The position numbers were made by a program, and so were the translations under genes. From assembly GCA_025999435.1 (NCBI GenBank), contig BNXH01000026.1:1-24469 (forward strand): a DNA stretch of 24,469 nt, in the 5' to 3' direction. How positions within the stretch are numbered: the first letter of the stretch is position 1; every line of letters begins with the position of its first letter. The DNA comes from Bacteroidia bacterium. Lineage in GTDB: Bacteria > Bacteroidota > Bacteroidia > Bacteroidales > Dysgonomonadaceae. The notes beneath the pieces are model-generated. The model saw nothing but the letters and a program-made list of their open reading frames with translations, had not been told where the DNA came from and searched no databases. Positions 2-22,218 of the stretch are shown here, piece after piece.

Positions 2-736
2 CATGCGGAAAACCTGAAACGCTTTGAAAGGCAGGCAAGGAATATGCACTCGCTGTCAAGGTATAGCCGTTCAAATCAAATAAACAAACAATGGATCGAA
101 GAGTATCTCAATGATGCGCATAGCTTCGGCTTAACCTCCGTGCGTTGCCATGTCAATGTCATGGCATGGAGCGAAGACAAAGAAGAACTTTCCCGTATCA
201 AAAATGATGTGGGCAGCCAGTTGGCTTTGATGGGATGCAAGCCCCGGCACAATACGGTCGATACGCCGACCTTGTTCTGGGCAGGTATTCCGGGTAACCA
301 GGGGGATTTCCCGGGTGAAGAAAGTTTCTACACTTTTATCAAGCAGGCCTTATGTTTTTTTGTGGAAGAAACAAACTACAAGAGTTCACCTTCTCCATTC
401 GGTATTAAGATGGTAGACCGGGTAACGGGCAAGCCGCTCCATGTGGATATATCCGACCTTCCCATGAAGAAAGGGATTATCTCCAACCGGAATAAGTTCG
501 TGTTAGGACCTTCTGGTAGTGGCAAATCTTTCTTTATGAACCATATGGTCAGACAGTATTGGGAGCAGGGCACGCATGTCGTCTTAGTCGATACGGGTAA
601 CTCCTATCAGGGCTTATGTGAAATGATCCGTAATAAAACCAAAGGGGAAGACGGGATTTACTTTACCTATACCGAAAAAAAGCCGATTTCATTCAATCCG
701 TTCTATACCGACGACGGGCAGTTCGATGTGGAGAAA
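2..736 (+). pseudogene. traG: Central part of TraG conjugation ATPase, inverted relative to its own N-terminus
   Basis: The open frame enters from the left edge in frame 2 (starting HAENLKRFERQ) and matches the central region of Bacteroides TraG, the VirB4-like ATPase that powers the conjugative type IV secretion channel. The Walker A motif GPSGSGKS is encoded at 506-529, followed by LVDTGNSYQG and FNPFYTDDG, typical of the family. Family similarity stops at the codons for FDVEK (ending about 736). The frame stays open to 1000, but that tail is antisense to the TraG N-terminus and is not real protein. The N-terminal part of the same protein lies immediately next to it on the opposite strand, so this piece cannot be read with its own start. 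The ATG at 44 is internal to the family sequence, not a true start. The Walker B region and C-terminus are not visible. Identity as TraG is clear; whether the arrangement is biological or an assembly artefact is not. Confidence 0.85.
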
Positions 737-1332
737 TACTTTTCGATAATGCCTGCGGCTCCCGTCCCTTCGGGATTGACCGGGGATTGGACGCCTACTA
801 TCTCATCGGTTGTCAATCGACTCAGCTTGATAAACCCGCTATCGTTGATAATGCGTTCGAACTGCCCGACGGACTCCAGGAATTTCTGCGCCGTTTCCCT
901 GTCCTGCATTTCCTTTGGGACGATAAAGCCACGGGTAAGAGCTGTAAAGCTGCTTTGCTGTTTAGCCCGCTCTTTGGTTGTCTTGGTCAGGAAGAGATAA
1001 CAAGTGTGATTCAAAAACGGCCGTTCGTTGAAATGACGCTCGAAAGACCGTGATAAAAAACTGATGTCTTCTTTCTGTAATTCGGGCTTGTAGTCCTCTT
1101 CGGTAAACCAGTCCTGCTTGAGAATCACAGAGTAGTTGGGCAATACTTTTATCGCTTTTGCCCAGGCCGCATGGATCGCTTCGTATTCGGCAGAGGTGAC
1201 GGTAAACAGTTCGGGCAGTTCTACCCGGTAGGCAACTGTTATATCCGCGTCCTTACTGAGGATGCAATCGTATTCGACAGCCAGCAGCGGAAACTTGCTC
1301 TCCAATGTAGCTGCTGTTAGTGTATTCCGCAT
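703..1332 (-). pseudogene. traG: N-terminal part of TraG conjugation ATPase, cut off by an inversion junction
   Basis: This frame encodes the conserved N-terminus of Bacteroides TraG: LESKFPLLAVEYDCILSKDA, then FLSRSFERHFNERPFLNHT, and further on the stretch AGIIEKYFS. TraG is the VirB4-type ATPase on the cytoplasmic side of the mating channel. Genuine family sequence runs from the ATG at 1330-1332 to about 730. The last residues before the stop at 703 (TSNCPSSV) come from reading the inverted central part backwards. The start overlaps the end of traF by 16 bases, the usual coupling in this operon. The product would be about 209 residues, against more than 800 for a complete TraG as I recall the family, and would lack the Walker motifs. 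Such an element could not conjugate by itself unless the inversion is reversible or a second traG copy exists. Confidence 0.85.
730..736. other. traG: Inversion junction inside traG, seven-base shared sequence
   Basis: Here the minus-strand TraG N-terminus meets the plus-strand TraG centre head to head. The plus strand reads GGAGAAA as the end of the FDVEK codons. The minus strand reads TTTCTCC as the KYFS codons. The same bases therefore belong to both natural reading frames, as expected for an inversion between two short inverted repeats. The surrounding 14 bases (731-744) form an imperfect palindrome. Which residues normally follow each side is inferred from recalled TraG sequences. Confidence 0.7.
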
Positions 1333-1661
1333 AGATCCTCCTTTCTTTTGATTCTTGAAATCAGTTGGATGATGCGCCTGCGGTTGATGATATAGCGGGG
1401 ATGGTTACGGATAGCCTGCAACTTCATGAGCCCGAATTCCCCGTATTTGTCGTTCAGGTAAAAAGTGCCCCGAACCAGTGTCCCGGCGGTAACAACCCCG
1501 AACCCGATACAGATAACCTGGCTGATACCGACCATATACATAATCACAAAGACTACGAATACACCCAACAACCCGCCTGCGAAGATGAACAGGTACTGGC
1601 TTTTGAGTCCCTTAAACTCGGCGGGCTTGCCGATTCCTTTATTGATTGAATATGCTGCCAT
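1317..1661 (-). CDS. traF: Conjugation protein TraF (DUF4133 family), VirB3-like membrane protein
   Basis: This is a 114-residue protein that I recognise as TraF of CTnDOT-type elements. It starts MAAYSINKGIGKPAEFKGLK, followed by two adjacent hydrophobic segments (about residues 24-42 and 45-66), then a charged tail rich in arginine (YIINRRRIIQLISRIKRKED). Small two-helix inner-membrane proteins placed directly before the VirB4-type ATPase correspond by position to VirB3, which helps anchor that ATPase. That functional equivalence is inference from size, topology and gene order. The gene lies 42 bases after traE and overlaps the traG start by 16 bases, so translation of the two is probably coupled. 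The length is normal for the family and there is no sign of damage. Confidence 0.88.
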   Translation of the reverse strand: MAAYSINKGIGKPAEFKGLKSQYLFIFAGGLLGVFVVFVIMYMVGISQVICIGFGVVTAGTLVRGTFYLNDKYGEFGLMKLQAIRNHPRYIINRRRIIQLISRIKRKEDLCGIH

Positions 1662-1703
1662 TCTTTTTCGTTATTAAAAGATTAATAAGAGGATCTGTGA
1701 CCC

Positions 1704-2003
1704 TTACAGGAAAAAAGATCTAAGAATTGTAGCGGCTACAATCAGGAAGATACACGCCCCGAACCACGAGGCGGCGGTCTTGGAGGTGTCGGGGTCGCCA
1801 CTCGAAAACTTCGAGTAGACTTTTACCCCTCCGATGAGTCCTACAACGGCCCCGATGGCATAGATAAGTTTGGTGGCCGGATCGAAATAGGAGGTCACCA
1901 TATTGGTGGCGTCGGTGATGCCCTGCATGCCGTTGCCCTGGGCAAATAGCGTTGAACCTATGGCTAAGGACACAGCCATAGAAAGAAGGAATTTCTTTCT
2001 CAT
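1704..2003 (-). CDS. traE: Conjugation protein TraE (DUF4134 family), small pilin-like membrane protein
   Basis: From the ATG at 2001-2003 this is a 99-residue protein starting MRKKFLLSMAVSLAIGSTLFAQ, a clear signal peptide with likely cleavage after the alanine of LFA. Two hydrophobic segments follow (about residues 46-62 and 79-97). Sequence and position between traD and traF match TraE of Bacteroides conjugative transposons. A secreted, two-helix, roughly 80-residue mature protein just ahead of VirB3-like and VirB4-like genes resembles VirB2 pilins; the pilin role is inference. The frame is open to 2051, but that extension (MSDDPILTAIKNKPTI) would bury the signal peptide, so the later start is preferred. 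A gap of 152 bases separates it from traD, longer than the other gaps in this operon. That gap contains a NotI-type palindrome (GCGGCCGC) and no promoter I can recognise. Confidence 0.88.
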   Translation of the reverse strand: MRKKFLLSMAVSLAIGSTLFAQGNGMQGITDATNMVTSYFDPATKLIYAIGAVVGLIGGVKVYSKFSSGDPDTSKTAASWFGACIFLIVAATILRSFFL

Positions 2004-2155
2004 AATTGTCGGTTTGTTTTTAATTGCCGTGAGGATTGGATCGTCGCTCACGGCGGGTTAAACTTGAATAATCTGGATAATTAGCGCGGCCGCAAGCCGT
2101 TTTGTCTTTACTTCATTTTATTTTTCCATAGGCGTTTGTTTTTAATATACTGTTT

Positions 2156-2869
2156 CTAAAAAATACTGTCGATATCAAAATCTTTAAATTCATCCGGATA
2201 GATAATTTCATTCACTCCCTGCAATCGTTGAGCGCACATAGCCAGATGGACATCAATAAGTGTTGCGATTGTCCTGGCTGTTTCTTCACTGTTGGCAGCT
2301 ACCTGTTCAAACATATCTGTCTGATGATTTTCGTAAAGTACGCGTCCTGCCTCTACTTTGTCAGCTTCCGATGCCTGTTTGTTGACAATAGTCCGGTTCG
2401 TATGCACTAATTCGTCATAGCTGGCTCCACTGGCCAGTACAGCGTCACGTCCGGCATCAAGCGGTTCCTCTTCTGCTGCTGCTTCGTCCGGCGTCACCGA
2501 TTGTTCTTTCTCCAAAGGGACATCTACATCGAATTTTTCAGGATCGCTATCCGGTTCGGGTGCAAATGTAGATTCTTTTTCAATAGGATTTTCACTTTTC
2601 AAATCCGTGGCAGTGTTTGGCGTCGATTGGCGCAGGTTAAATTTACTTTTGCCTACAATCGATGCTATTTTATTCTCTTCGACAGTTGTTTTTTTCGAAT
2701 CTTCAACCTTAACTTCTTCTTTTGCCTTTCCGTAGGTAATCAAATACAACCATTCCACAAACTGTCTCCATTTCCTTACCAAAATCGGATAAAGGATCAT
2801 ACCTAATAGAATGGAGGCGATAACAACTATTAGTTGTACCATATGGCTATTGATTTTAATATTATTCAT
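2156..2869 (-). CDS. traD: Conjugation protein TraD of CTnDOT type, single-pass membrane protein
   Basis: This is a 237-residue protein with one hydrophobic segment near the N-terminus (about residues 11-30). A basic stretch follows, then a long acidic, low-complexity middle region rich in E, D, P and S (about residues 95-145). The stretch KSKFNLRQSTPNTATDLKSE (residues 74-93) and the following EKESTFAPE agree with TraD proteins of Bacteroides conjugative elements. It is not related to the F-plasmid coupling protein of the same name; the coupling protein here is MobC. The molecular function is not known to me. The start overlaps the end of the preceding DUF3408 gene by 8 bases, indicating translational coupling. 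Codons 73-88 or so (2608-2653) also carry a DNA word repeated twice in the traA-mobA intergenic region. Confidence 0.75.
   Translation of the reverse strand: MNNIKINSHMVQLIVVIASILLGMILYPILVRKWRQFVEWLYLITYGKAKEEVKVEDSKKTTVEENKIASIVGKSKFNLRQSTPNTATDLKSENPIEKESTFAPEPDSDPEKFDVDVPLEKEQSVTPDEAAAEEEPLDAGRDAVLASGASYDELVHTNRTIVNKQASEADKVEAGRVLYENHQTDMFEQVAANSEETARTIATLIDVHLAMCAQRLQGVNEIIYPDEFKDFDIDSIF
2608..2653. repeat. traD: Copy 1 of the 22-bp word, inside the traD coding sequence
   Basis: Bases 2608-2629 match the intergenic 22-base word at 20 of 22 positions, in the same plus-strand orientation, although this lies within minus-strand traD. The wider match to 5194-5239 continues for about 46 bases. 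It falls in the codons for the conserved KSKFNLRQSTPNTATD segment, so coding constraint may explain it here but not in the non-coding copies. Confidence 0.55.
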
Positions 2870-3287
2870 CTACCTTTCGTTTAAGTATATCCTTTATATC
2901 CGATTCATACATCTCAAAATGATGGGCCAGCACCGTATCTATATATCCGAACACCGATAAATTGGGGTTGTCATAACAAAGAATAATGCCCTGTATTTTC
3001 TTATAGAATTGACTGCGTAAATAGGTTGTTTTCTCTTTCCTTCCTGTTATCGGGGTTTCCTGAATAAAAAGGGACTCATAATCTTTTTTGTTTTTTCGCT
3101 TTCGAGAGACTTCCTGTTCCTCTTTTCGAGGAATAGATATGTTTCGACGGCCTGACGGTATATCCATTTTTTCATATTCCACCCTTTTTGTATTTGAAAA
3201 AATACGCCTGTAGCCTTTGACCAGTTTTAGAACTATAATACCTCCAATCAATGTAAATACTGTTACAATTAATAATAGTGTTTCCAT
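2862..3287 (-). CDS. DUF3408-type conjugation protein with an N-terminal membrane helix
   Basis: This 141-residue protein begins with a hydrophobic helix (METLLLIVTVFTLIGGIIVL), followed by a basic linker with several KR clusters and a C-terminal domain of about 70 residues. That domain contains SVFGYIDTVLAHHFEMYESD. The pattern 'V-G-Y-h-D-x-V-h-x-H-H-h-E-x-h-x-x-x-I' is the signature I associate with DUF3408, the TraB/TraC group of Bacteroides conjugation operons. It shares the signature with the two upstream genes, so all three look like diverged copies. The position matches traC, but I do not assign that name firmly. Its start codon overlaps the stop of the upstream gene (TAATG), and its end overlaps traD by 8 bases. 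A DNA-binding or partition-accessory role has been suggested for such proteins by analogy with ParB/RHH folds; that is not shown here. Confidence 0.7.
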   Translation of the reverse strand: METLLLIVTVFTLIGGIIVLKLVKGYRRIFSNTKRVEYEKMDIPSGRRNISIPRKEEQEVSRKRKNKKDYESLFIQETPITGRKEKTTYLRSQFYKKIQGIILCYDNPNLSVFGYIDTVLAHHFEMYESDIKDILKRKVDE

Positions 3288-3586
3288 TACATCAGGGATT
3301 TAGCCGTATTTTCTTTATAATAACATTCTATTTCCTCTCTGTAGGATTCTAAGTGATGTCCTATAACAGCATTCAGGTATCCGGTTATTGTTATTTTCCT
3401 TCCATGTTTCACAGCAACCAAACGACTGATAATAGTGGCCAGATCCTCATTTACATACATACACACGCGTTGATAATTCCTATTTCCTGCTTTTTCTATG
3501 AACAGAATTTTATAGTCTCCCTTATCAATCATATTTGTTTTTGGCTGTGCACAATCATTATTTCTTTTAAATCTTCTATTCTTCAT
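3287..3586 (-). CDS. Small DUF3408-type conjugation protein
   Basis: This is a 99-residue, basic, apparently soluble protein. The C-terminal part contains RVCMYVNEDLATIISRLVAV followed by ITGYLNAVIGHHLESYREEI, the same pattern seen in the flanking DUF3408 genes. It resembles a ribbon-helix-helix-like module: a short strand followed by two helices. It lacks the membrane helix of the downstream copy and the long acidic linker of the upstream copy, so it is close to the bare domain. It lies 8 bases after traB and is joined to the next gene by a one-base TAATG overlap. No catalytic residues are evident. It may bind DNA together with the ParA-like TraA, which is inference from the family context only. 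Confidence 0.68.
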   Translation of the reverse strand: MKNRRFKRNNDCAQPKTNMIDKGDYKILFIEKAGNRNYQRVCMYVNEDLATIISRLVAVKHGRKITITGYLNAVIGHHLESYREEIECYYKENTAKSLM

Positions 3587-3594
3587 AATTTGTT

Positions 3595-4020
3595 TTATTT
3601 AATTAAATCATCTTTTTTCTTTTTATACAAGGTGTTGATTTCCTGTTTATTCGCCTCGAAGTGTTCTCTCATTACCGTATCAACATATACGCCGACCGAT
3701 ACATTGTTATCCGCTATTTGATTAACAATCTTAACGATAGTCTCGTGTACATCCTGGCTGATATAAACACATTGCCTGCTTTTGAGCTCCCTCTTTTGTA
3801 AAAAGACAGATTTGTAGTTATCAGCGACCTTTGGCTTTACGACTTCACTTGCTCCCCGTTCTTCTACTTCATCTTTCTTCACCGGCTTTATCTCTTTTTC
3901 AACAGGAGCAGTCTCCGCTTTACTTTCCGGCCTTCCAAAATCGACCATCGACTCCAGGAGCTGCTTTTCGTCAATGCCTTCTACACGGCGGATAATATTA
4001 TCTTTCTTCCCCATAAGCAT
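3595..4020 (-). CDS. traB: TraB-like DUF3408 conjugation protein
   Basis: This 141-residue protein has an N-terminal charged linker (about residues 20-65, rich in E, K and V) and a C-terminal domain from about residue 75. That domain reads RQCVYISQDVHETIVKIVNQ, then SVGVYVDTVMREHFEANKQE. This is the DUF3408 signature found directly downstream of the ParA-like gene in Bacteroides conjugative transposons, where the gene is called traB. The start at 4018-4020 overlaps traA by 23 bases; a second ATG two codons later (4014) is also possible. Its place after a ParA ATPase suggests a partner role like that of ParB or an RHH adaptor, but no experiment I know of supports this. The length and reading frame look intact. 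Confidence 0.72.
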   Translation of the reverse strand: MLMGKKDNIIRRVEGIDEKQLLESMVDFGRPESKAETAPVEKEIKPVKKDEVEERGASEVVKPKVADNYKSVFLQKRELKSRQCVYISQDVHETIVKIVNQIADNNVSVGVYVDTVMREHFEANKQEINTLYKKKKDDLIK

Positions 4021-4783
4021 TCAGGCCTGTTAATTCTTCAATTTCGTCAGCCAGCAGGTCCAGATTGGTATCCTTTACCAGTTGTTTATCAACGGGAAAT
4101 AGGGTGCTGCGGAAGATGGACCTGACCTCTTCCGTCAGTTCATGCCGGAAACGTTTCCTGTCAGGGATCATTGTTTTTAAAACGTGCAGCCCCAGTTCGC
4201 CGAAAAGGGTATTAAAGGTATCGTACAGATCGGTTCGTTCCCTGGAATCTACCTGGTTCCAGATAAGGTACAGGCCTTGTATATTACTTTTCCCCGTCGA
4301 TATGACATTATCATTGAGCAGGGAGGCAAACTCAAGGGAACTTTGCAATACCATCCGGTCGGCAGTAACCGGGGTAATGATAAAATCTATCATGGACAAG
4401 GTTTTGATAATACCTTCGCTGTTGAGCGTTCCCGGTAAATCGAAAAATATTATATCCAGATCCTCAGGAGATTCCCGGATCATCCTTTCGGCGGCTGTAA
4501 TGGCATCGACAGGGGAACTTTTAAGAATCGGGTACGGCTTCTTATTCAGTGTTTTGAGCTGGTTAAACGCCATTAGCTTGTAGTGGTCGATAGAGGTTGC
4601 AATCTTCCGGTCCCGGTCCCGCATATTATAGGTGCTGAACTGTGGAAGGTCGCAGTCTATCACTCCTACATTATATCCTTTGACATAATGGAAGTGCCCG
4701 GCCATCAGGACTGTCAGGGCAGTTTTGCCTGCTCCGCCCTTTTGAGTGGAAAAGGCAATTAATAAAGTCTTTTTTTCTTTCAT
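3998..4783 (-). CDS. traA: TraA, ParA/MinD-family ATPase at the head of the transfer operon
   Basis: This 261-residue P-loop ATPase carries the deviant Walker A motif of ParA proteins, QKGGAGKTALT (about residues 14-24). Next comes a Walker A'-like segment, VGVIDCDLPQ (about residues 39-48), and then a Walker B-like IIFFDLPGT (about residues 113-121). In CTnDOT-type elements traA is the first gene of the tra operon, as here: it starts at 4783 next to the large intergenic region and points away from mobA. ParA proteins move or position DNA or protein cargo by ATP-dependent nonspecific DNA binding. A role in placing the transfer complex or maintaining the excised element is plausible but inferred. 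It overlaps traB by 23 bases. The length is normal. Confidence 0.85.
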   Translation of the reverse strand: MKEKKTLLIAFSTQKGGAGKTALTVLMAGHFHYVKGYNVGVIDCDLPQFSTYNMRDRDRKIATSIDHYKLMAFNQLKTLNKKPYPILKSSPVDAITAAERMIRESPEDLDIIFFDLPGTLNSEGIIKTLSMIDFIITPVTADRMVLQSSLEFASLLNDNVISTGKSNIQGLYLIWNQVDSRERTDLYDTFNTLFGELGLHVLKTMIPDRKRFRHELTEEVRSIFRSTLFPVDKQLVKDTNLDLLADEIEELTGLNAYGEER

Positions 4784-5193
4784 TTGATAATTAATTAGTT
4801 CGTTAAAACAATCTGTATATAAACCGGTATATCCATACTCTTTTCATGAGATGTGCCACCCTTGTCTTATTTTTATATTTTCATGGTTTTCTCTCCCTCT
4901 GCTTCTGTAATTCATCCCTGACAAGTCAAATCAGACGTATACCACAGCGCATCACGAAGAAATCAATTGATTACTTATCTGATAATACATTGTTCCGGTT
5001 TTACAAAATCATACGACAGTACAACAGTACAACAGCAGAACATTTTCTTCTCATAAGTTTAAGAATTTGAAAAGTTGCTCCTTTAAAATAGCAGTTTCCT
5101 ATTCTTTCGACTATATGAATAATTGCTTATCCGCATCAACCGTCCGGCAAATAAATAATAAAAATCCCATAAAATATTCATTTTCAACACATG

Positions 5194-5239
5194 TGGCAGT
5201 ATTTGGCGTTGATTGGCGTAGGTTAATTTCATTTTTGCA
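5194..5239. repeat. Copy 2 of a 22-bp word shared with traD and repeated at 5471
   Basis: Starting at 5194 the sequence reads TGGCAGTATTTGGCG and continues to complete a 22-base word (5194-5215) that recurs exactly at 5471-5492. Similarity to the traD copy at 2608-2653 extends further, to about 46 bases ending in TTTTTGCA, with roughly ten differences. This copy has no open frame equivalent to traD. It could be a remnant of a traD segment or a shared protein-binding site. Confidence 0.6.
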
Positions 5240-5470
5240 CTAAGAAGGAAGGAAAATATTGGGGAGACAGCCATGCCGGAAGATTGGATTTTTCTGAAAA
5301 AAACAGAACCAAAAACAAAGGCTTCTTATGCCCGTCTTTATCCAATATGTAAAAAAATATAGTTGGCCGGGAAGTCAATATCGCAAAATCAACATACCGG
5401 ATAACTTTTGTTGCAGGAATACCCGTTCATGCTGGTCTTTTCTTCATCCGATATCCTTAACCCACCCTTT

Positions 5471-5492
5471 TGGCAGTATTTGGCGTTGATTG
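5471..5492. repeat. Copy 3 of the 22-bp word in the traA-mobA intergenic region
   Basis: The 22 bases at 5471-5492 are identical to 5194-5215, in the same orientation and 277 bases downstream. Similarity ends abruptly after base 5492, where the sequence continues TCCACCCC instead of GCGTAGG. An exact core with different flanks fits a functional site better than a plain duplication. Confidence 0.6.
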
Positions 5493-5590
5493 TCCACCCC
5501 TGATTATTAGCATACTAATTATGAAGCCTCTAACTTTGCCACGGTGAAACCACTTCCGGCTTTATCACCGGATATATAAGATTAAAAACG

Positions 5591-5813
5591 GAAGAATAGA
5601 GATTCTTCTCTTTTTTGAAATCAACTATATCCTGTTAGCTGCAAGCTATCCCCTTACAGCTAAAATGGCAATCCGCATTCATGCGGATCTTTATTGTCGT
5701 CAGACAATAGCAAGATGTGTTTTGAGCTGCTCTGAATAAATTCAGCATCCCAAAACATCTTGCCCACTCCTTTGAAAAGTCGGGGGAGAATCTTGCGCCG
5801 GAGTTGCAAGATT
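5591..5813. other. Candidate origin of transfer (oriT): cluster of six inverted repeats before mobA
   Basis: Six inverted repeats follow one another. Arms are: 5591-5597/5602-5608 (GAAGAAT), 5635-5641/5657-5663 (TTAGCTG), 5671-5678/5681-5688 (ATCCGCAT), 5692-5698/5703-5709 (TATTGTC), 5710-5724/5751-5763 (GCAAGATG..TTTTG, two-base bulge, with an inner CTGAA/TTCAG stem), and 5789-5796/5806-5813 (AATCTTGC). Except for the bulged fifth one, all arms are perfect. Hairpins beside a relaxase operon are the usual look of an oriT. The word CATCTTGCCC at 5756-5765, in the right arm of the fifth repeat, resembles the IncP nick consensus YATCCTG/Y; AATCTTGCG at 5789 is a second, weaker candidate. The first repeat, followed by a T-run, could instead be a terminator. 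The nick site is inference. Confidence 0.6.
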
Positions 5814-5918
5814 TAGATTTTCGATTGAATGTAATGACTACCTCTTGTGGTAGCTGATGTAAAACTTGTCGTAGACTGCGTAAAACAAAACGGTCTGCGA
5901 CCGCTAATTATCCAAGTT

Positions 5919-6359
5919 ATGAATAAAGAAAAGAATCCTAAAAAACGAAAGGTCGGGCGTATTCCCAAGAAAGACCCCGCTGTTTTCCGCTATTCGATCA
6001 GCTTCAATAGTGTCGATCATGCCCGCTTTCTCTCCCTTTTCGAAGCAGCGGAAGCAAAAAGTAAAGCTCATTTTATCACTTCCTGTATCTTCGACAAACT
6101 CCTCAAAGTAGTCAAAATCGACAAGGGAATACACGATTATTACATGCGGTTAACAACCTTTTTCGGCCAGTTCCGGGGCATAGCTACGAACTATAACCAG
6201 ATTGTAAAATCCCTCAATGCCAATTTCACGGAGAAAAAAGCGCTTGCTTTTCTCTACAAATTAGAGCAGCAAACCATTGAACTGGTACAGCTCAACAGGC
6301 AAATTATTGCCCTTACAGCCGAGTTTGAACAAAAGTATTTACAGGATCATGGTCGCTAA
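5919..6359 (+). CDS. mobA: MobA, accessory mobilisation (relaxosome) protein
   Basis: From the ATG at 5919 this is a 146-residue basic protein starting MNKEKNPKKRKVGRIPKKDP. It continues with RYSISFNSVDHARFLSLFEA and GQFRGIATNYNQIVKSLNAN, both typical of MobA of Bacteroides conjugative transposons. The family is a MobC/RHH-type relaxosome accessory protein that binds oriT and helps load the relaxase. The strand-then-helices pattern at about residues 25-75 and the C-terminal coiled-coil-like region fit. The frame is open back to 5847, but the added residues do not resemble the family and would run closer to the oriT repeats, so the later ATG is preferred. The stop overlaps the start of mobB (6349), indicating coupled translation. 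The length is normal. Confidence 0.85.
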   Translation: MNKEKNPKKRKVGRIPKKDPAVFRYSISFNSVDHARFLSLFEAAEAKSKAHFITSCIFDKLLKVVKIDKGIHDYYMRLTTFFGQFRGIATNYNQIVKSLNANFTEKKALAFLYKLEQQTIELVQLNRQIIALTAEFEQKYLQDHGR

Positions 6360-7569
6360 AATCAATAATGGCAGCTCATTATTCGGGGCATTATCCTATA
6401 ATCAGGAGAAGATAGAGCAGGGCGAGGGGAAAATCCTTTTCTCTAACCGTATTATCCAAAATACCGATGGCTCACATAATATGTATCTTAATATGAAGTC
6501 TTTCGAGCCTTATCTGGCTGCCAATAAAAGAACCGAAAAGCCGGTACTGCACATCTCGGTGAATCCGCATCCTGACGATAAGCTGGCGGACGAACAACTG
6601 GCTATTATAGCGCAGGAGTATATGGAAAAGATGGGCTATGGGAATCAACCTTACCTTGTCTATAAACACGAAGATATTGACCGACACCACTTACATATCG
6701 TTTCAGTTCGGGTAGATGAGAACGGTAAAAAGCTGGACGATTCTTATGAGAAAAGGCGTTCGGAGAAGATCCGTAAGGAACTGGAGCAGAAATACAATCT
6801 CATCCCTGCCGGGAAGCAGGGGCAATCAAATACTTTACCGCTAAAGCCGGTAAATATCAAATCCGGCAATGTCAAAAAACAGGTTTCCAATATTGTCAAA
6901 TCGCTGGTGCAGGATTATCATTTTCAGAGTATCAATGAATATCGGGCGCTCCTTAATGTATATGGTGTAACGGTAGAGGAAGTAAAGGGAGAAGTCCGGG
7001 GTAAATCTTATAATGGGCTGATGTATTCTGCCCTGAATAAAAAGGGAGAAAAAGCTGGCAATCCATTCAAGGCTTCATTGATTGGCCGGGATGTTGGGTA
7101 CGGAGTTCTACTGAAGCAGATAACTTCTTCTAAAGAAGCCTTGAAGGATAAGAAAGCCTATGCCCGGACAGAATATATAGTTGCTGCCCTGCTAAAAGAA
7201 ACTCTTTCCCGGAAAAATTTCGAAAAGGAGTTGGCTAAGAATAGCATTTCTGTATTATTCAGGGAGAATGACGATAAACGTATATACGGCGTAACTTTTA
7301 TCGACCACCGGGAGAAAGCGGTGTTTAACGGTTCCCGGATGGGTAAGGACTTTTCCGCTAATGTTTTTCATAACCTGTTCAACGGGGACGGTAAAGAAAA
7401 GCATTCCCATAAATGGGAACCATTTGTGCCTTTTTCGCATGAACAGGATTCTGCTGACTCTTTGGGCGGATTGCTGGCAATGGAACAGCATGGCGACAAC
7501 TACGACGAAATTGCCTTTACCAACCGCATGAAACGCAGGAAGAAAAAGCCTCGTGGTCCGAAACTATAA
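6349..7569 (+). CDS. mobB: MobB, relaxase that nicks oriT
   Basis: From the ATG at 6349 (MVAKINNGSSLFGALSYNQE) this is a 406-residue relaxase of the Relaxase/mobilisation nuclease family (Pfam PF03432 as I know it). It would cut one strand at oriT, stay bound to the 5' end through a tyrosine and lead the strand into the recipient. The likely catalytic tyrosine is Y17 in LSYNQE. The metal-binding histidine motif is KHEDIDRHHLHIV, with H107, H114 and H116 as probable ligands. The basic C-terminus (MKRRKKKPRGPKL) may help bind DNA. The frame is open back to 6277, but that stretch overlaps mobA and lacks family features. The start overlaps the mobA stop. All key residues I would expect are present. 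Confidence 0.9.
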   Translation: MVAKINNGSSLFGALSYNQEKIEQGEGKILFSNRIIQNTDGSHNMYLNMKSFEPYLAANKRTEKPVLHISVNPHPDDKLADEQLAIIAQEYMEKMGYGNQPYLVYKHEDIDRHHLHIVSVRVDENGKKLDDSYEKRRSEKIRKELEQKYNLIPAGKQGQSNTLPLKPVNIKSGNVKKQVSNIVKSLVQDYHFQSINEYRALLNVYGVTVEEVKGEVRGKSYNGLMYSALNKKGEKAGNPFKASLIGRDVGYGVLLKQITSSKEALKDKKAYARTEYIVAALLKETLSRKNFEKELAKNSISVLFRENDDKRIYGVTFIDHREKAVFNGSRMGKDFSANVFHNLFNGDGKEKHSHKWEPFVPFSHEQDSADSLGGLLAMEQHGDNYDEIAFTNRMKRRKKKPRGPKL

Positions 7570-7580
7570 TAACAAGTCAG

Positions 7581-7601
7581 TGTGTCAATTCAATTGGCAC
7601 A
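7581..7601. repeat. Short inverted repeat between mobB and mobC
   Basis: TGTGTCAATT and AATTGGCACA flank a single base and pair at 9 of 10 positions. The 66-base gap between mobB and mobC contains this palindrome and a short direct repeat GGCACAT. No T-run follows, so it is more likely a processing or binding site than a terminator. Its role is unknown. Confidence 0.35.
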
Positions 7602-7635
7602 TCGGCACATTTACTAATTTTCAAATTGATTTTTT

Positions 7636-9639
7636 ATGCAACAAGAAGACGATTTAAGAGGCCTGGCAAAAGTTATGGAATTCATGAGGGCTATCAGTAT
7701 ATTATTTGTAGTAATCCATATTTACTGGTTCTGTTACCAATCTATTTTAGAACAGGGTATCAATATAGGTGTAGTAGATAAAATCTTGCTGAACTTTCAG
7801 AAAACGGCAGGATTGTTTTCCAATATCCTGTGGACAAAGCTATTTGCCGTAGTATTCCTTGCTTTGTCCTGCCTGGGGACGAAAGGCGTAAAGGAAGAAA
7901 AAATCACATGGAATAAAATATATGTATTTCTATTCTTTGGCTTTATCTTTTTCTTCCTCAATTGGTGGATATTGGCTTTACCCCTGCCATTGATTGCTAA
8001 TACAGCCATTTATATTTTTACAATGACTATCGGGTATATTCTGCTATTAATGGCAGGATTGTGGATGAGCCGCTTATTAAAGAATAACCTGATGGAAGAC
8101 GTCTTTAATCTGGAGAATGAATCCTTTATGCAGGAGACACGGCTGATGGAGAACGAATACTCCGTCAACTTACCGACCCGTTTTTTCTATAAAAAGAAAT
8201 GGAACAAAGGTTGGATAAATGTGGTCAATCCCTTCCGGGCGACAATTGTATTGGGTACTCCGGGCTCAGGAAAATCTTATGCGATTGTAAATAACTACAT
8301 AAAACAGCAACTCAGCAAAGGATATTCGATGTATATATATGATTATAAATTTGATGACTTGAGTACTATTGCTTATAATGAATTGTTGAAGAACCTCGAT
8401 AAGTACGATGTTACTCCCAAATTCTATGTAATCAACTTCGATAATCCGGCAAAGAGCCACCGGTGCAACCCCATTGCGCCGGAGTTCATGACCGACATTT
8501 CCGACGCATATGAAGCTTCGTATACAATAATGTTAAATTTGAACAAAACGTGGATTCAAAAGCAGGGGGACTTTTTTGTGGAATCGCCTATTATCCTGTT
8601 AGCTGCAATTATATGGTATCTCAAAATATACCAGAATGGGAAATATTGTACATTCCCTCATGCCATCGAGTTCCTGAACAAAAGGTATGAAGATATTTTC
8701 CCGATTCTAAGTTCTTACCCGGAACTTGAAAACTATATGTCTCCCTTTATGGATGCTTGGAAATCGCAAGCGAACGACCAGTTGCAGGGACAGATAGCGT
8801 CTGCTAAAATACCACTCTCCAGAATGATAAGCCCGCAGCTCTATTGGGTAATGACAGGGAATGATTTTACATTGGACATCAACAATCCGAAAGAGCCGAA
8901 GATACTTTGTGTGGGTAATAATCCCGACAGGCAGAATATTTATTCTGCGGCTCTTGGTTTGTATAACAGTCGTATCGTAAAGCTGATAAACAAGAAGGGA
9001 ATGCTGAAATCTTCTGTTATTATTGATGAATTGCCGACTATTTATTTTCGGGGATTAGACAATCTGATTGCTACTGCCCGGAGTAATAAAGTGGCTGTGT
9101 GTTTGGGTTTTCAGGATTATAGCCAGTTAAACCGGGATTATGGGGATAAAGAATCGAAAGTGGTGCAAAATACGGTTGGAAATATCTTCTCCGGGCAAGT
9201 AGTCGGTGAATCGGCTAAAACTTTATCGGAACGCTTCGGAAAAGTCTTGCAAAAACGGCAATCCATGACCATTAACCGTCAGGATAAATCAACCTCTATC
9301 TCTACGCAGTTGGATAGCCTGATCCCTGCCAGTAAAATATCGAACCTGACACAGGGTATGTTCGTCGGAGCCGTCAGCGATAATTTCGATGAAAGGATTG
9401 AGCAGAAGATATTTCATGCGGAAATTGTTATTGATAATCACAAGGTGGCTGCTGAAACAAAGGCTTATAAAAAGATACCTACGCTAACTAATTTTGGAAA
9501 TGATAAGAGTGTTGATTTGATGGAGCAACAAATACAACTAAATTATGTCCGCATTAAGGAAGAGGCTAAACAGATAGTAGAAGTTGAACTAAAACGGATT
9601 AAAAGTGATGAAAATTTAAAGCATTTGGTAAAACAGTAA
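7636..9639 (+). CDS. mobC: MobC, VirD4/TraG-type coupling ATPase
   Basis: This is a 667-residue inner-membrane ATPase that would link the relaxosome (MobA-MobB-oriT) to the mating channel built by the Tra proteins. The N-terminal 145 residues contain several hydrophobic segments (about 19-39, 58-80, 93-113 and 120-143). The P-loop GTPGSGKS lies at residues 207-214 and the Walker B segment VIIDELP at 461-467. TraG/VirD4-type features follow, such as NLIATARSNKVAVCLGFQDY (about residues 476-495). It is the third gene of the mob operon, 66 bases after mobB. The length is normal for Bacteroides MobC and no damage is seen. The start at 7636 is the only ATG near the N-terminal membrane region. Confidence 0.92.
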   Translation: MQQEDDLRGLAKVMEFMRAISILFVVIHIYWFCYQSILEQGINIGVVDKILLNFQKTAGLFSNILWTKLFAVVFLALSCLGTKGVKEEKITWNKIYVFLFFGFIFFFLNWWILALPLPLIANTAIYIFTMTIGYILLLMAGLWMSRLLKNNLMEDVFNLENESFMQETRLMENEYSVNLPTRFFYKKKWNKGWINVVNPFRATIVLGTPGSGKSYAIVNNYIKQQLSKGYSMYIYDYKFDDLSTIAYNELLKNLDKYDVTPKFYVINFDNPAKSHRCNPIAPEFMTDISDAYEASYTIMLNLNKTWIQKQGDFFVESPIILLAAIIWYLKIYQNGKYCTFPHAIEFLNKRYEDIFPILSSYPELENYMSPFMDAWKSQANDQLQGQIASAKIPLSRMISPQLYWVMTGNDFTLDINNPKEPKILCVGNNPDRQNIYSAALGLYNSRIVKLINKKGMLKSSVIIDELPTIYFRGLDNLIATARSNKVAVCLGFQDYSQLNRDYGDKESKVVQNTVGNIFSGQVVGESAKTLSERFGKVLQKRQSMTINRQDKSTSISTQLDSLIPASKISNLTQGMFVGAVSDNFDERIEQKIFHAEIVIDNHKVAAETKAYKKIPTLTNFGNDKSVDLMEQQIQLNYVRIKEEAKQIVEVELKRIKSDENLKHLVKQ

Positions 9640-9662
9640 AAAAAAAGGTTCTATCCCAATAT

Positions 9663-9705
9663 TAAAGTCTGAATTTTTATTCCTAAATAATGATTTCAGA
9701 CTTTA
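9663..9705. terminator. Hairpin terminator after mobC, possibly bidirectional
   Basis: A perfect 11-bp inverted repeat, TAAAGTCTGAA (9663-9673) and TTCAGACTTTA (9695-9705), is followed by ATTTTATTA and preceded by an A-rich stretch. It lies 23 bases after the mobC stop and 160 bases before the convergent end of the hybrid regulator gene. It therefore probably ends the mob transcript and may also stop transcripts from the other side. The spacer of 21 bases is longer than in typical terminators. Confidence 0.6.
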
Positions 9706-9867: not shown

Positions 9868-12585
9868 TTATGATAAATTATTTCCCTTTATAAACTCAGT
9901 CGGACTTACTTTGTAAAACTCTTTAAAACATTTTGTAAAATAAGATGCTGAAGAAAACCCCGATTTATAAGCTATCTCAGAGATAGAGATACCGGAAATA
10001 ATCATTTGTGCAGAATATTTTAATCTTAAAATTCTTACAAATTCATTTGGAGAATAATCAGTTAATGATTTTATTTTTCGATATAATTGAGATCGGGAGA
10101 GACCCATATGTTTCGCAATATCTACTATATTGAGATCTGGATCAGTAATATTCTTTTCGACATATTCTTGGAATATGTTTATAAAAGATTGTTCTATTTC
10201 AGCCAATGTTGTTTTTTTAGAGTTACTTAGTAAACTATTGGCAAAAGAATCTTTAATTTTCTGCCTGTTTTCAATTAAACGATGAATTCTTATATTCAAT
10301 AATTTAGCATTAAAAGGTTTTGCTATATAAGCATCTGCTCCGCTTTCAAAGCCTTGGGCCTTTTGTTCTTCTAATGAGCAAGCTGTCAATAAAATAATAG
10401 GGATATGGCTTGTATACATATTCCCCTTAAGCAATCGGCAAACTTCAAAACCGTCTTTACCTGGCATCATAATATCACATATAATAATATCGGGTATAAA
10501 TTTTATTGAAAGTTCTATTCCCTCATCCCCATTTTCAGCTTCAATAACAGTATACTCACTTCGAAGGATTAAGCGCATATAGTTCCTCATATCTTGATTA
10601 TCATCAATGAGTAATATTATCTTTTTATCCTCTTCTAAAATGTTCTCTATAAATAATTTTTCGGATATAACTTCTATATCATTTTTTAATTGAGTTTTTG
10701 TAAATCCTTCCTGATATACGATAGCTTCCTCTGTAGGTATATCTAATACATTTTGACTACAAGGTAATAGAATATTAAATGTTGTACCTTCTCCTTCTAT
10801 GCTTTCAACTGAGATTCGACCACCATGTATATCCACCAATGCGCTGGTGAGAGCGAGTCCGATTCCAGTACCTTCATCTGTTGGACTGACTTTATAAAAT
10901 CTTTCAAAAATACTGTTGATTTTATCAGGAGGGATAGCTTTTCCATCATTAAATACAGATAGTTTAAAATAGTTAGTCCCATTATATATAACTGTTGCCA
11001 CATTTATATTAATAGTTCCATTTTTATCTGTATGTTTAAATGCATTTGATAGAAGATTAAAATACATTTTTTCAACTTTCTCTTTATCAAAAGGAATTAT
11101 ATAAGAACTGTTATCTGTGGAAAAAATGAAATTTATATTCTTTCTTTTGGCATAATCTAAGAAAGCGATATTTAAGTCTTCCAAAAATAACTTAATATCA
11201 TCTCTTACAAATTGAATGTCCATTTTCCCGTTTTCATATTTTCTAAATTCAATAATTTGTGAAAGAAGGTTTAAAAGAATATTACTGCTACGTTGCATGA
11301 TTTCCAATAGGACTTTTTGCTCTGTGGATATATTCTCAGAAGTGAGCAATGTGTCTATTGGCCCCAGAATTAAGGTAAGTGGAGTTCGAAATTCATGTGA
11401 TATATTCGTAAAGAAAACCAATTTTGCATTTGTAGCTTCTTCCAACTGCCTGGATAAAGAAACCAGTTGATTTTTTTGTTCTTCTAACAGCCTGTTTGAT
11501 TTACTTTTACTTCTATAAGCTAGAACAGAAACTAATAATAATATCGAAATTAATAGAAGAACAAGAATTGTCCCGTAAAAAAAGGTTTGTTGGTTAGAAT
11601 ATTGTTTAAGGCTTTTATTTAAAAGTCCATTTATTCGTTCTACCTTTTGTCGATGATTCGCTATTTGTTCTGTTTGTAATTGTAGTACCCTTACATTACT
11701 TCTGTCTACTACAGCCGTGTGCAAAATATTCTCTCTATCAAAAGGCTTCTTCTGTAATATATTTAGTGCCAGATCAATCACCTTATCCCCACCAGTCGGA
11801 TAAATAAAAGAAGCGTCTTGTATTCCTTTTCTTATATTTTCTATTCCACCTCCTTTACCCGGTAAGGCGTCTATACCTACTATAAAAGGAAAACGTCCGC
11901 TATATTTTGAAACAGCCTCATGCACCCCCAATGCCATTGGGTCATTCATTGCAAATACAAGATCTATCTCTTTATATTTACTCAGAACCTTAGTCATTTC
12001 TTTTTCAGAATCTTCTTTTAAAAAGTTTCCCCGGCATTCCGCTACAATTTTTATATCAGGATAGTTCTTAATCCCATCAATAAAACCCGCATGCCTTTCT
12101 GTGTCGGAGGTTGAACCATGCCAGCCGCGCATTTCAACTACATTTCCTTTATCATTAAGTATTCCAGCTATATATAAACCAGCCTCTTTTCCTATCTGAT
12201 AGTTATCAGCCCCTATGTAAGCAGTATAATCATCTGTATCTATTTTTCTGTCAACTAAAATAACAGGAATACCCATATTATGTGCTTTCTGTACAACAGG
12301 AGTAACAGCTGTAGATTCATTTGGGGAAACGACTAGCAAATCTACTCCTTTTTCCAGTAGTTCTTCTATATCTTTTATTTGTTGCCGGGTATCATCTTTT
12401 ACAGTTCTGATATCAATTTCGATATTTTGATTGATAGAAGCTTCCAATAAGATTTCATCATTCATTGTTTGCCTCCATAAATCATCACTACATTGCGAAA
12501 TACCAATGATATATTTACCTTTTTCTTCTTTAGTACAGGAGCATAAGAGGTTAAGGATTATGAGGATAAAGCAAGTCCTGTTCAT
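9868..12585 (-). CDS. Hybrid two-component system regulator of fructan utilisation (BT1754-like)
   Basis: This single 905-residue protein combines sensor and regulator. It starts with a lipoprotein- or anchor-like N-terminus (NLLCSC). Residues 25-300 resemble periplasmic sugar-binding proteins of the ribose type (KYIIGISQCSDDLWRQTM, LLVVSPNES, YIGADNYQIG, VFAMNDPMALG). A transmembrane helix (about 336-357) follows. Next are a histidine kinase domain with phospho-acceptor H397 in NISHEFRTPL, an ATPase domain with N514 and GTGIGLAL, and a receiver domain with D704 in ICDIMMPGKDG. An AraC-type DNA-binding domain (about 820-900, ending YKVSPTEFIK) closes the protein. B. thetaiotaomicron BT1754 has this layout and its periplasmic domain binds fructose; this copy is inferred to do the same and to activate the nearby fructan genes. 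It is the last gene of the minus-strand cluster, 72 bases after the fructokinase gene. All catalytic residues appear intact. Confidence 0.92.
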   Translation of the reverse strand: MNRTCFILIILNLLCSCTKEEKGKYIIGISQCSDDLWRQTMNDEILLEASINQNIEIDIRTVKDDTRQQIKDIEELLEKGVDLLVVSPNESTAVTPVVQKAHNMGIPVILVDRKIDTDDYTAYIGADNYQIGKEAGLYIAGILNDKGNVVEMRGWHGSTSDTERHAGFIDGIKNYPDIKIVAECRGNFLKEDSEKEMTKVLSKYKEIDLVFAMNDPMALGVHEAVSKYSGRFPFIVGIDALPGKGGGIENIRKGIQDASFIYPTGGDKVIDLALNILQKKPFDRENILHTAVVDRSNVRVLQLQTEQIANHRQKVERINGLLNKSLKQYSNQQTFFYGTILVLLLISILLLVSVLAYRSKSKSNRLLEEQKNQLVSLSRQLEEATNAKLVFFTNISHEFRTPLTLILGPIDTLLTSENISTEQKVLLEIMQRSSNILLNLLSQIIEFRKYENGKMDIQFVRDDIKLFLEDLNIAFLDYAKRKNINFIFSTDNSSYIIPFDKEKVEKMYFNLLSNAFKHTDKNGTININVATVIYNGTNYFKLSVFNDGKAIPPDKINSIFERFYKVSPTDEGTGIGLALTSALVDIHGGRISVESIEGEGTTFNILLPCSQNVLDIPTEEAIVYQEGFTKTQLKNDIEVISEKLFIENILEEDKKIILLIDDNQDMRNYMRLILRSEYTVIEAENGDEGIELSIKFIPDIIICDIMMPGKDGFEVCRLLKGNMYTSHIPIILLTACSLEEQKAQGFESGADAYIAKPFNAKLLNIRIHRLIENRQKIKDSFANSLLSNSKKTTLAEIEQSFINIFQEYVEKNITDPDLNIVDIAKHMGLSRSQLYRKIKSLTDYSPNEFVRILRLKYSAQMIISGISISEIAYKSGFSSASYFTKCFKEFYKVSPTEFIKGNNLS

Positions 12586-12657
12586 GGCTGATTTAAATAA
12601 TAGGCAAATCTATAAAAAGCATCGTAATTAAAAAGTTAAAAACGATGTTTTAATATT

Positions 12658-13542
12658 TTATTTCCAAAATAATTCCAGATAAGCATCCGGTAATTTAGGC
12701 ATTGCACCATGTTGCGTACATACATAAGCTGAAACTTCCACTGCCAATTGGTGTGCGTCAGTAAGACGTTGTCCACGCATATAAGATGCCACAAAAGCAG
12801 CAGTAAAAGAATCTCCTGCTCCTACAGTATCAGCTACATGGACTTTTGGAGTAGGTTGGTATGACGTTTCTTTTTGAGTGAAAACAAAGCTTCCATCTGT
12901 TCCTTTTGTAAGTACGATAATATCAAGATTATATTCCTCAAGTAAACGTTTACAGATATCTTGTTCATTATCCTCCTTATATCCATATAGCTGTGCAACT
13001 AAAATAACTTCTTCATCATTAATTTTTAGCATATTTGAAAGTAATAAGGATTCATGTATCAACTCCTTGGAATAAAAATGTTGCCGCAGATTTATATCAA
13101 ATATTTTAAGACTATTTTCTGGCATGCATGCTAAGAATTTTTTTATAGTCTCTCTGGATACACTGTTTCGCTGAGCTAATGAACCAAAGGAAACTGTATT
13201 TGTATTTTTTGCCAGATTTTCTGTTTTTGCAGTAAAAGAGATATTATCCCATGCTACATTCTCACATATTTCATATTCAGGAACTCCTTTGTTATTCAAT
13301 TTTACATTTACTGTTCCTGTCGGATAATCCGTAGTCTCTATCAGATAATTCAGTCCTTTTTCAGCAAGACAGTCCAATATCTCTTTTCCCAACAAATCTT
13401 CACCAATAGCACTTACAGTATATCCATTATATCCGAACTGCGATACGTGATAGGCAAAATTTGCAGGGGCACCGCCCATAACTTTTCTTTCAGGAAATAT
13501 GTCCCATAAAATCTCGCCTAGTCCTACAATAGTATTATTCAT
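12658..13542 (-). CDS. Fructokinase, PfkB/ribokinase family
   Basis: This 294-residue cytoplasmic sugar kinase would convert imported fructose to fructose-6-phosphate with ATP. PfkB-family features are the N-terminal substrate-binding GGAPANFAYHV (residues 23-33) and the C-terminal signature DTVGAGDSFTAAF (238-250), with D244 as the probable catalytic base and GAGD as the anion hole. The family is broad, and fructose specificity is inferred from the neighbours: a hexose permease 15 bases upstream and GH32 enzymes. It corresponds in position and type to BT1757 of the B. thetaiotaomicron levan locus. The gene is probably co-transcribed with the permease and the hybrid regulator. The length is normal and the frame intact. 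Confidence 0.88.
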   Translation of the reverse strand: MNNTIVGLGEILWDIFPERKVMGGAPANFAYHVSQFGYNGYTVSAIGEDLLGKEILDCLAEKGLNYLIETTDYPTGTVNVKLNNKGVPEYEICENVAWDNISFTAKTENLAKNTNTVSFGSLAQRNSVSRETIKKFLACMPENSLKIFDINLRQHFYSKELIHESLLLSNMLKINDEEVILVAQLYGYKEDNEQDICKRLLEEYNLDIIVLTKGTDGSFVFTQKETSYQPTPKVHVADTVGAGDSFTAAFVASYMRGQRLTDAHQLAVEVSAYVCTQHGAMPKLPDAYLELFWK

Positions 13543-13557
13543 AGTTATTTACTTAAT

Positions 13558-14733
13558 TTATTTAATCGAAATTACTTTATTTTTTATTCTGGTTGCTAAA
13601 AAAAGAAGATAAATAACACCTATAGTCATTATTGCCAATGCTCCTATCTGTGAATTGCCCAATGCTTTAGTAGCATGCCCCATGAAAAATGGGAATATAG
13701 TTCCTCCGAAAAGTCCCATAATCATTAGACCTGATATCTCATTCTTCTTATTGGGCATATATAGCATTGCACGAGATAGTATTACAGAGAAAACATTGGA
13801 ATTACCAAAACCAATGAGACCAATACATGCACATAATGCAATTTCACCTTGTAAAAAATATAGTCCTGCCATACCTAAAGCTATGCAAAAAACACTCAAT
13901 GCAAAAAACTTTTTAGCTGAATAACGAGCAAGAACAAATGCTCCTATAAAACAACCGGCTGTACGAAAAGCAAAATACACACTGGTCGCATAGTTTGCAT
14001 CATCAAGGTTTGTTAATCCAAGCCTTTCCATTAGTATCCGGGGAGAAGTAATATTGGTGCCCACATCAATACCGACATGGCATATGATACCAAAAAAACA
14101 TAGTAAAATAACTCCATTGCCCAATAGCTTAAAGCATTCTGTAAATGTAGCACCTTTACTATCCTCTTTTTGTTCATCGATATTGGTTATACCAAGCCAT
14201 ATTGTTGAAATTACAGATATAATCAAAAACAAAGGATAAATCATTCGCCAGTCATCAAACATCAATGATGCCCTTGTTGCTATAAGTGGAGCACTAAATG
14301 ATGCTATTGCTTTTACAAATTGCCCGAAGGTCAGAGAACTTGCAAGTTTGTCACCTTTTACAATGCTTGATAAAAGCGGATTCAGCGAAACTTGCATCAA
14401 TGTATTGCCTATTCCTAATAAAGAAAAGGTTATAATAAGAGATGTCTTGTCATACCACAGAAATGGGATTATCATTGACAGGGCAGTTATCAATAAACTG
14501 ATTATAACCGTTTTTTTTCTTCCTATCCGGGACATTAATAGTCCTGTAGGAACGGAAAAGATAAGAAACCAGAAGAAAACCATTGATGGGAATATATTCG
14601 CTGTCGCATCGTCCAATCCCAGATCTTTTTGAGCATAATTAGTAGCTGTACCAACCATATCTACGAACCCCATACAAAAGAATGCCAGCATTATAGGAAG
14701 AATCTTCGTATAAAAACTTTTATTGTTAGTCAT
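13558..14733 (-). CDS. MFS hexose (fructose) permease, BT1758-like
   Basis: This is a 391-residue inner-membrane protein, hydrophobic throughout, with about 12 predicted helices. The cytoplasmic loop motif between helices 2 and 3 (GLLMSRIGRKKT, residues 64-75) is the major facilitator motif A. The sequence looks like the sugar:proton symporter branch that includes FucP and GluP. In this locus the expected substrate is fructose released in the periplasm by GH32 enzymes; B. thetaiotaomicron BT1758 has that role and the same position beside the fructokinase gene. It lies 32 bases after the GH32 gene and 15 bases before the fructokinase gene, so a single transcript is likely. Substrate specificity is inferred from context, not from individual residues. 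Confidence 0.85.
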   Translation of the reverse strand: MTNNKSFYTKILPIMLAFFCMGFVDMVGTATNYAQKDLGLDDATANIFPSMVFFWFLIFSVPTGLLMSRIGRKKTVIISLLITALSMIIPFLWYDKTSLIITFSLLGIGNTLMQVSLNPLLSSIVKGDKLASSLTFGQFVKAIASFSAPLIATRASLMFDDWRMIYPLFLIISVISTIWLGITNIDEQKEDSKGATFTECFKLLGNGVILLCFFGIICHVGIDVGTNITSPRILMERLGLTNLDDANYATSVYFAFRTAGCFIGAFVLARYSAKKFFALSVFCIALGMAGLYFLQGEIALCACIGLIGFGNSNVFSVILSRAMLYMPNKKNEISGLMIMGLFGGTIFPFFMGHATKALGNSQIGALAIMTIGVIYLLFLATRIKNKVISIK

Positions 14734-14765
14734 ATCGATTATTTATTCGTTAAAGTAAAAAACAA

Positions 14766-16958: not shown

Positions 16959-17073
16959 GGTTTATTTTTTAAGTTATATAATATTGATTTATTTTTTTAG
17001 AAAATACCCACTGAGATTTAAAGTTATTATCTTTTATACAAAGGAATACTTATTAGTATAATAATGTGATAAC

Positions 17074-17141
17074 AAATGTTGCCAACGATTGTAAAAATGT
17101 TGCATCTTATTTATTTTCTTGCATATTGCAACATTTTTACA
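17074..17141. promoter_or_regulatory. Candidate operator: 15-bp perfect inverted repeat plus a third half-site
   Basis: TGTAAAAATGTTGCA at 17090-17104 and TGCAACATTTTTACA at 17127-17141 are perfect inverted copies with a 22-base spacer. A third copy of the core AAATGTTGC lies at 17074-17082, exactly 21 bases (two helical turns) before the same core at 17095-17103. The site sits between the divergent GH32 and susC genes, upstream of the susC promoter. This is where an AraC-type hybrid regulator would bind. Alternatively it could form a transcript hairpin. Binding is inference. Confidence 0.6.
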
Positions 17142-17184
17142 TATATCTGAAACATCCATTACACAGGGCGAAATTAAATCCATG

Positions 17185-17192
17185 TAGTTTTG
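17185..17192 (+). promoter_or_regulatory. Bacteroides-type -7 promoter element for susC
   Basis: TAGTTTTG fits the Bacteroidota -7 consensus TAnnTTTG. No TTTG box is seen at the usual -33 distance, as expected for a promoter needing an activator. The candidate operator ends 43 bases upstream. Transcription would start shortly downstream, which favours the susC ATG at 17238. Confidence 0.5.
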
Positions 17193-17237
17193 TACAATCA
17201 TGAAATTAATATGTTAAACAATAAATTTAATTACCAA

Positions 17238-20200: not shown

Positions 20201-20333
20201 AAATGCCCGGGTTTATATACAATCACAAAATCTTTTTACAATCACAAAATACAAAGGTGCAGATCCTGAAGGCTTAGGATATACTTATCCACTTCCCAGA
20301 ACATATACACTTGGATTGTCCTTTGGTTTTTAA
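17238..20333 (+). CDS. SusC-like TonB-dependent outer-membrane fructan importer
   Basis: From the ATG at 17238 this is a 1031-residue outer-membrane transporter that would import fructo-oligosaccharides with energy from TonB. The N-terminus is a signal peptide (ISILFLFVLPSLSFS, cleavage near residue 28). A carboxypeptidase-D-regulatory-like domain follows (about 33-107, with TTDIEGKYQI), then the TonB box DEVVVTG (111-117), a plug domain (SLQGRVPGVNI, LYVIDGV, VLKDAASAAIYGAQAANGVI) and a 22-strand barrel ending in the typical C-terminal phenylalanine (YTLGLSFGF). An ATG at 17211 in the same frame is also possible, but it lies too close to the likely transcription start and adds a hydrophilic leader. 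The susD gene follows after 26 bases. Substrate is inferred from the GH32 neighbours; it corresponds to BT1763 by position. Confidence 0.92.
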   Translation: MEKQTHIIKLKCCISILFLFVLPSLSFSQTKGVTGVVTSAEDGLGTIGVSVVEKGTTNGTTTDIEGKYQIQLTRESATLVFSMIGMVAQEKTVRNGDVVDVVLSENQQLLDEVVVTGYTSERKVDITGSVSVVKMKDIANIPTGNVLSSLQGRVPGVNITTDGTPGGMNTSTLIRGTTTINDSSPLYVIDGVMTRDNIASILSSNDVESIQVLKDAASAAIYGAQAANGVIIITTKRAKKGEIKVDFDMSLTAQTFTTGIDLLNTQQWGDVYWQAYKYSYGVTPNSAVYGNGETAVPQEYYYNTDKLKIRTANTDWAKEIYSTSLMQNYNVTLSKGADNGSTSLTLNYMDQDGLIRNTDFKRLNTRLTSDYHFLNNRLRIGESISINRWTRHLNPGGIEEQVLAQHPAIPIYDENGGYAGGYVDILGDKPNMIRLTDNEKNNRHTYWRIFGNAYIEVEPVKNLILKSNFGINYYNEFNSVFIPSWQEGSRTVKTNELTTSNAYKYNWVSSNTAAYNFTINKHSASALLGFEAKKDYSEHLNGYGTNLSIEDTNYLYLDGVTAGQTVGNNASTYAMVSVFGRANYSYDGKYLLSGTLRRDASSRFGSKKNYGYFPSVSGGWRISSEPFMSTTTNWLSDLKLRASWGINGNDMIDNEATYTKYIVSLRDASYNISGDGSILAPGAFKDITGNPLLKWEQTTQTNIGIDAAFLNNRMGIAFDYFNKDTKDMLIKRDYIAVIGEGGYYWYNGISMNNKGFEVTLNWRDNIKDFNYEIALNLSYYKNKVTDLPSDIYYTYGGGNGTDKTIVGKPLGSWMGYKTDGIFRTQEEVNEYNSKYDVQIGEAGIGRVKYQDINDDGKINTADQTWLGSDRPKLIGGLNLAASYKGFDINMFFNGMVRDAWNNSKYYTDFFQLWTGNHSTRLLSALSAWKEYEQTGVYKSDIPALTVDNKNNEERGSDYYIENGSYIKLKSLTLGYTLPNKLMSRLKLRNARVYIQSQNLFTITKYKGADPEGLGYTYPLPRTYTLGLSFGF

Positions 20334-20359
20334 TATCTAACAGATAAAAAATAAATGAT

Positions 20360-22126: not shown

Positions 22127-22154
22127 AGTATTGTAAATGGTTATACATTTTTCG

Positions 22155-22183: not shown

Positions 22184-22218
22184 TGATTATTATGAAAAAG
22201 CCTATAAACTAAATACCA

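Follow-up and report, generated by a model that had tools for sequence, protein, structure and literature searches.

The conjugation gene traG is assembled, in the stretch of DNA analysed here (24,469 bases, hereafter the window), as two pieces that lie on opposite strands and meet at a seven-base junction. The window is the entire contig C26 of assembly G000, a draft genome of the genus Dysgonomonas (278 contigs, 2.21 Mb, 51% completeness), and among named organisms Dysgonomonas mossii DSM 22836 is the best relative. The half-flip of traG is truly present in the assembled sequence and, judged from the two long homologous stretches involved, the flip itself exceeds chance. Most probably, it is no feature of the organism. 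On the sequence comparisons reported below, we put the probability at roughly 0.8 that the junction is a fold-back chimera and does not reflect the genome as it exists in the living cell; our best reading of its source is DNA copying, library preparation or assembly, a cause that we infer.

The two halves of the gene are carried by a plus-strand open reading frame (2-1000) and a minus-strand one (703-1332), which converge and overlap. Comparison with relatives delimits their natural coding parts to 2-736 on the plus strand and 730-1332 on the minus strand, and the overlap between them (730..736) consists of the seven bases GGAGAAA/TTTCTCC, which belong to both natural frames. The first piece (2..736, plus strand) is the central part of traG with the P-loop GPSGSGKS; it is reversed with respect to the N-terminal part, is 83-84% identical at the DNA level to the closest loci and matches the P-loop_TraG family (PF19044) over positions 1-106 of the 413 in the profile (E 9e-54). 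The second piece (730..1332, minus strand) is the N-terminal part, assigned to DUF3875 (PF12991, E 1e-28) and by comparison with relatives, and it shares its strand with the tra genes to the right. On one strand, the matches of relatives cover at most 1-736, and on the opposite strand at most 794-1400; four of the matches listed also include a stretch of 26-33 bases that ends at 756 on the strand of the N-terminal part. A strand-flip scan based on codon pairs places the switch at 734|735. These results bear out the preliminary description, in which the N-terminal part was read on the minus strand down to about 730, the P-loop part on the plus strand up to about 736, and the seven bases in both frames: open reading frames, Pfam and relatives agree. 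The imperfect palindrome that it placed at 731-744 is also there as read from the sequence, with mismatches in two of its seven pairs. Just before the junction lies a linker (757-793) that is eight codons longer than the short form in 89 of the 92 readable loci (108 were tried). It was considered as a further rearrangement and dropped, a similar long linker being found in L048, whose pieces are in normal order, which points to natural variation.

We take the interrupted gene to encode the VirB4-type TraG ATPase of a CTnDOT-type conjugative transposon. Both the DUF3875 N-terminal domain and the TraG P-loop domain of such proteins are present, on the two separate pieces, and the neighbourhood is alike: to the right of traG follow a DUF4133 gene (1317..1661, minus strand, PF13571), a DUF4134 gene (1704..2051, minus strand, PF13572), DUF3408 genes, a ParA-type ATPase (3998..4783, minus strand, by Pfam) and a mobilisation block (5847..9639, plus strand, by Pfam) with MobC_2, a relaxase and a coupling protein (YWFCY/T4SS-DNA_transf). 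By position, the DUF4133, DUF4134 and ParA-type genes are presumably traF-like, traE-like and traA-like, respectively. As assembled here, the gene differs from a CTnDOT-type traG in two respects: the flip breaks it, and the contig lacks its C-terminal part. A fructan-use locus (9868-24363), composed of a hybrid two-component regulator, a PfkB kinase, an MFS transporter, two GH32 enzymes, a TonB receptor and SusD, directly adjoins the mobilisation genes; its G+C content is 34%, as compared to 41% in 1333-9700, and it is possibly cargo of the conjugative element.

The order of the two pieces was then compared across 115 traG loci by searching the pieces apart and comparing their strands. The sample consists of matches from the same genome and from relatives (one search contributing its best 80 of 319 matches) together with two fetched stretches. 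Normal order was found in 112 loci, two were without the N-terminal piece, and the window alone was flipped. Collapsed by distinct central pieces, the sample comprises 88 distinct loci, of which 85 are in normal order, one, the window, is flipped and two are undecided: L049 begins too near the piece and has little upstream sequence, and L081 reads N there. Normal order is not synonymous with an intact gene: the frame stops after 674 codons in L018 and after 677 in L019, and genome G019 carries an intron. Frame length was compared in 20 of the normally ordered copies, two of them from the same genome and 18 from relatives: it is 829-834 codons in 16, two frames run off the contig at 821 and 823, and the remaining two are those of 674 and 677; the window has two opposite-strand frames and lacks a single frame of about 830 codons.

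Some of the other traG loci deserve mention in their own right. In L018, L019 and L245:5212-5997 the traG frame does not reach the usual 830 codons but stops directly behind EEAWL, at what is perhaps another insertion site. In the single-contig genome G019 (C1, L245:1587-5997), a group II intron interrupts traG at a site matching window 570|571; it contains RF02012 at 3031-3179, RF00029 at 5288-5364 and an open reading frame (3519-5270) that is reverse-transcriptase-like by eye. Four traG copies of this genome are split at the same place; the description of the intron comes from one of them. Finally, two traG copies on contigs C11 and C12 of genome G004 start at base 7, their contig ends matching window position ~711, which perhaps reflects an inserted repeat.

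In these 20 normally ordered copies, the distance between the two sites that are joined in the window is 984 bp, except for two copies in which it is 978 bp. The longest inverted match between these arms measures 4-9 bp; one copy out of 20 has the exact seven bases at each arm, and seven have a six-base core. Recurrence of this core follows from conserved codons and is not unique to the strain of the window. Furthermore, inverted pairs of seven bases at distances of 100-3000 bp number 208-297 per traG (eight genes), against means of 158-218 in shuffled sequences; such pairs being common in traG, a match of this length is weak evidence on its own. A recombinase-driven intragenic inversion would have conserved inverted repeats at its two ends; such a repeat was sought at the arms of the 20 normally ordered copies, and no clear one was found. 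The preliminary description had derived the junction from a single inversion between short inverted repeats. One gene, one flip, the EKYFS and VEK codons and about 250 missing bases all stand; switching gains no support from the arms, which share just the 4-9 bp given above.

The geometry of the arms bears directly on the idea, raised at the outset, that flipping of traG switches conjugation on and off. According to this explanation, a recombinase would drive a reversible inversion of about 1 kb within the traG of a Dysgonomonas element, at sites almost without repeat. In favour of it, intragenic inversions of gut bacteria have reportedly been published (Chanin et al. 2024), and the window resembles them in that the inversion lies inside a gene and in a member of the Bacteroidota; it differs from them in having no conserved flanking repeat, a single orientation, a contig end close by and no recombinase in the scanned open reading frames. 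Indeed, no recombinase family was detected near the junction in a Pfam scan of 17 open reading frames, a search confined to the window. Bacteroidales use many invertible regions (PMC12632263), which is a further point for a switch. Against it stand the short arms, the single copy in 20 with the exact seven bases, the abundance of such inverted pairs in traG and the 85 of 88 distinct loci in normal order, with two undecided and the window alone flipped. Together with the dead end and the second junction described below, these observations leave a reversible switch unsupported and very improbable.

A different line of evidence comes from the left end of the contig (1..1), which lies 736 bases past the junction; the contig begins at window base 1. 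Own-genome searches and a 40-mer comparison found no other contig sharing this end: the first 40 bases of the window have no copy in the other contigs compared, whereas such sharing was seen for 26 of 82 contig starts. When the whole genome was searched with the traG of the window, the only other matches were on C14 and C91, 72-75% identical and in normal order up to their contig ends. The unshared first 40 bases and the distance of these two matches indicate that this end of the contig is a dead end. A search of the same genome with the D. mossii element matched the central part to C26, and a part further downstream to C22 from base 1 onwards (77-83% identity to D. mossii); between the latter and the window, roughly 2.07 kb and a further 249 bp or so are unassembled. 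Accordingly, the C-terminal part of traG and the 249 bases adjoining the window were not found in this genome, save for the distant copies on C14 and C91. A second junction had been predicted about 250 bases left of the window, and the 984 bp spacing in 18 of 20 copies agrees with that position; it is invisible, as the contig has no sequence left of window base 1. Contigs C14 and C91 both break off inside traG, and their first bases are identical over exactly 127 positions; a shared length of 127 recurs at several other contig ends and is probably the overlap length of the assembler.

These comparisons speak to two further explanations. One is a pure error in the assembler's graph, joining two traG copies of the same genome. 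The genome does carry at least two further copies; however, the two pieces of the window are equally close to the D. mossii locus L009 (82% and 83%) and only 72-75% identical to the copies on C14 and C91, and the junction shares seven bases where many contig ends share 127. We consider such an error hardly credible. The other is a genuine inversion, fixed in one strain and spanning about 984 bp within traG, arisen by illegitimate recombination at the seven-base match and breaking the conjugation ATPase. Its geometry fits (984 or 978 bp), both pieces are clean open frames, and rearrangements of mobile elements are common. On the other hand, the second junction that it predicts was not found in the genome, the contig ends 736 bases past the first one, and a junction of the same shape exists at an unrelated locus on contig C45. 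A fixed inversion is the main rival of the fold-back chimera and, although unlikely, ranks as a distant second to it.

The C45 locus emerged from the strand-flip scan, which looks for places where coding switches strand with neither a stop nor a start in between. A single-codon version did not recover the junction of the window; the codon-pair model that replaced it had this junction, already known, as its test case, and was applied to about 1.17 Mb of G000 outside the window. At the strict setting, four flips were found in 1,195,600 bases of G000 (window included) versus none in the 800,000 bases scanned of G019, a single-contig genome. The loose setting gave 24 matches versus seven in the G019 control, and decides nothing; the 14 places inspected looked mostly like ordinary neighbouring genes, one of them presumably an IS21-type element, and these matches were not used as fold-backs. 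Two of the strict matches were likewise left uncounted: both are doubtful, as the plus-strand partner looks spurious by eye in L152 and in L170, and the minus-strand partner of L170 is a transposase-associated piece (PF13808).

The remaining strict match, at position ~10221 of C45 (L131:9780-10576), is the one further fold-back-like join outside the window that is backed by relatives, the two other strict ones being doubtful. In this glycan locus, which is unrelated to traG, a cut methyltransferase (147 aa) stands head-on against a cut glycosyltransferase (PF00535, positions 1-95 of 168 in the profile), and the contig ends 3.4 kb after the junction. The transporter gene on the left side and the glycosyltransferases on the right side are co-directional in all four relatives fetched; the cut methyltransferase has no match in these four, and the order was judged from its neighbours. 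In a search of 61 genomes, the right part gave some matches about 26 kb or more away on the other strand, which are probably paralogues. C45 thus has the same shape as the window: a left part in normal order, a next part reversed, and then the end of the contig.

The fold-back chimera, which the preliminary description had named as an alternative in the form of a chimeric assembly or amplification artefact, is the better reading in view of the dead end, the unflipped relatives and the junction of the same shape on C45. The window displays an inverted join of sites lying a short way apart (984 or 978 bp) and a complementary match of seven bases, GGAGAAA. In such an event, the growing copy of one traG strand would come loose near the codons for IEKYFS, and its loose end could anneal through TTTCTCC to the complementary GGAGAAA on the displaced strand, about 984 bases further along. 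Copying would then run backwards through the stretch between the two sites, and the assembler, following this product in a poorly covered region, would continue for 736 bases into the reversed stretch and stop. The copying or amplification origin and the poor coverage are what we infer. In one single-cell amplification, 406 of 475 chimeric junctions (85%) were inverted, with at least two complementary bases in 93.5% of the inverted joins under 10 kb and up to 21 overall (PMC1855051). The junction of the window is similar to these chimeras of multiple displacement amplification, being an inverted join of near sites, under 10 kb apart, at a short complementary sequence; the difference lies in the amplification, which is documented for the DNA of that study. 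Our literature search found no report combining Dysgonomonas with single amplified genomes.

Several observations count against a fold-back chimera. The difference of four versus zero in the strict scan is small, one of the four being the test case itself and two (L152 and L170) doubtful. The support from C45 is tempered by the missing match of the cut methyltransferase and by the distant matches on the other strand. An overlap of exactly 127 bases is frequent among the contig ends of this assembly, so that a chance short match would not have been enough to produce the junction. Moreover, both traG pieces are undamaged open frames, as they would be in a very recent true inversion, and the six-base core of the match is found at both sites in 7 of the 20 copies.

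The case illustrates how the end of a contig, when chimeric, can look like phase variation in a conjugation gene. That one draft genome contains two such similarly shaped junctions calls for caution in inversion scans of fragmentary assemblies. If the inversion were true, it would represent an unusual control of transfer, exerted by inverting part of a structural gene.
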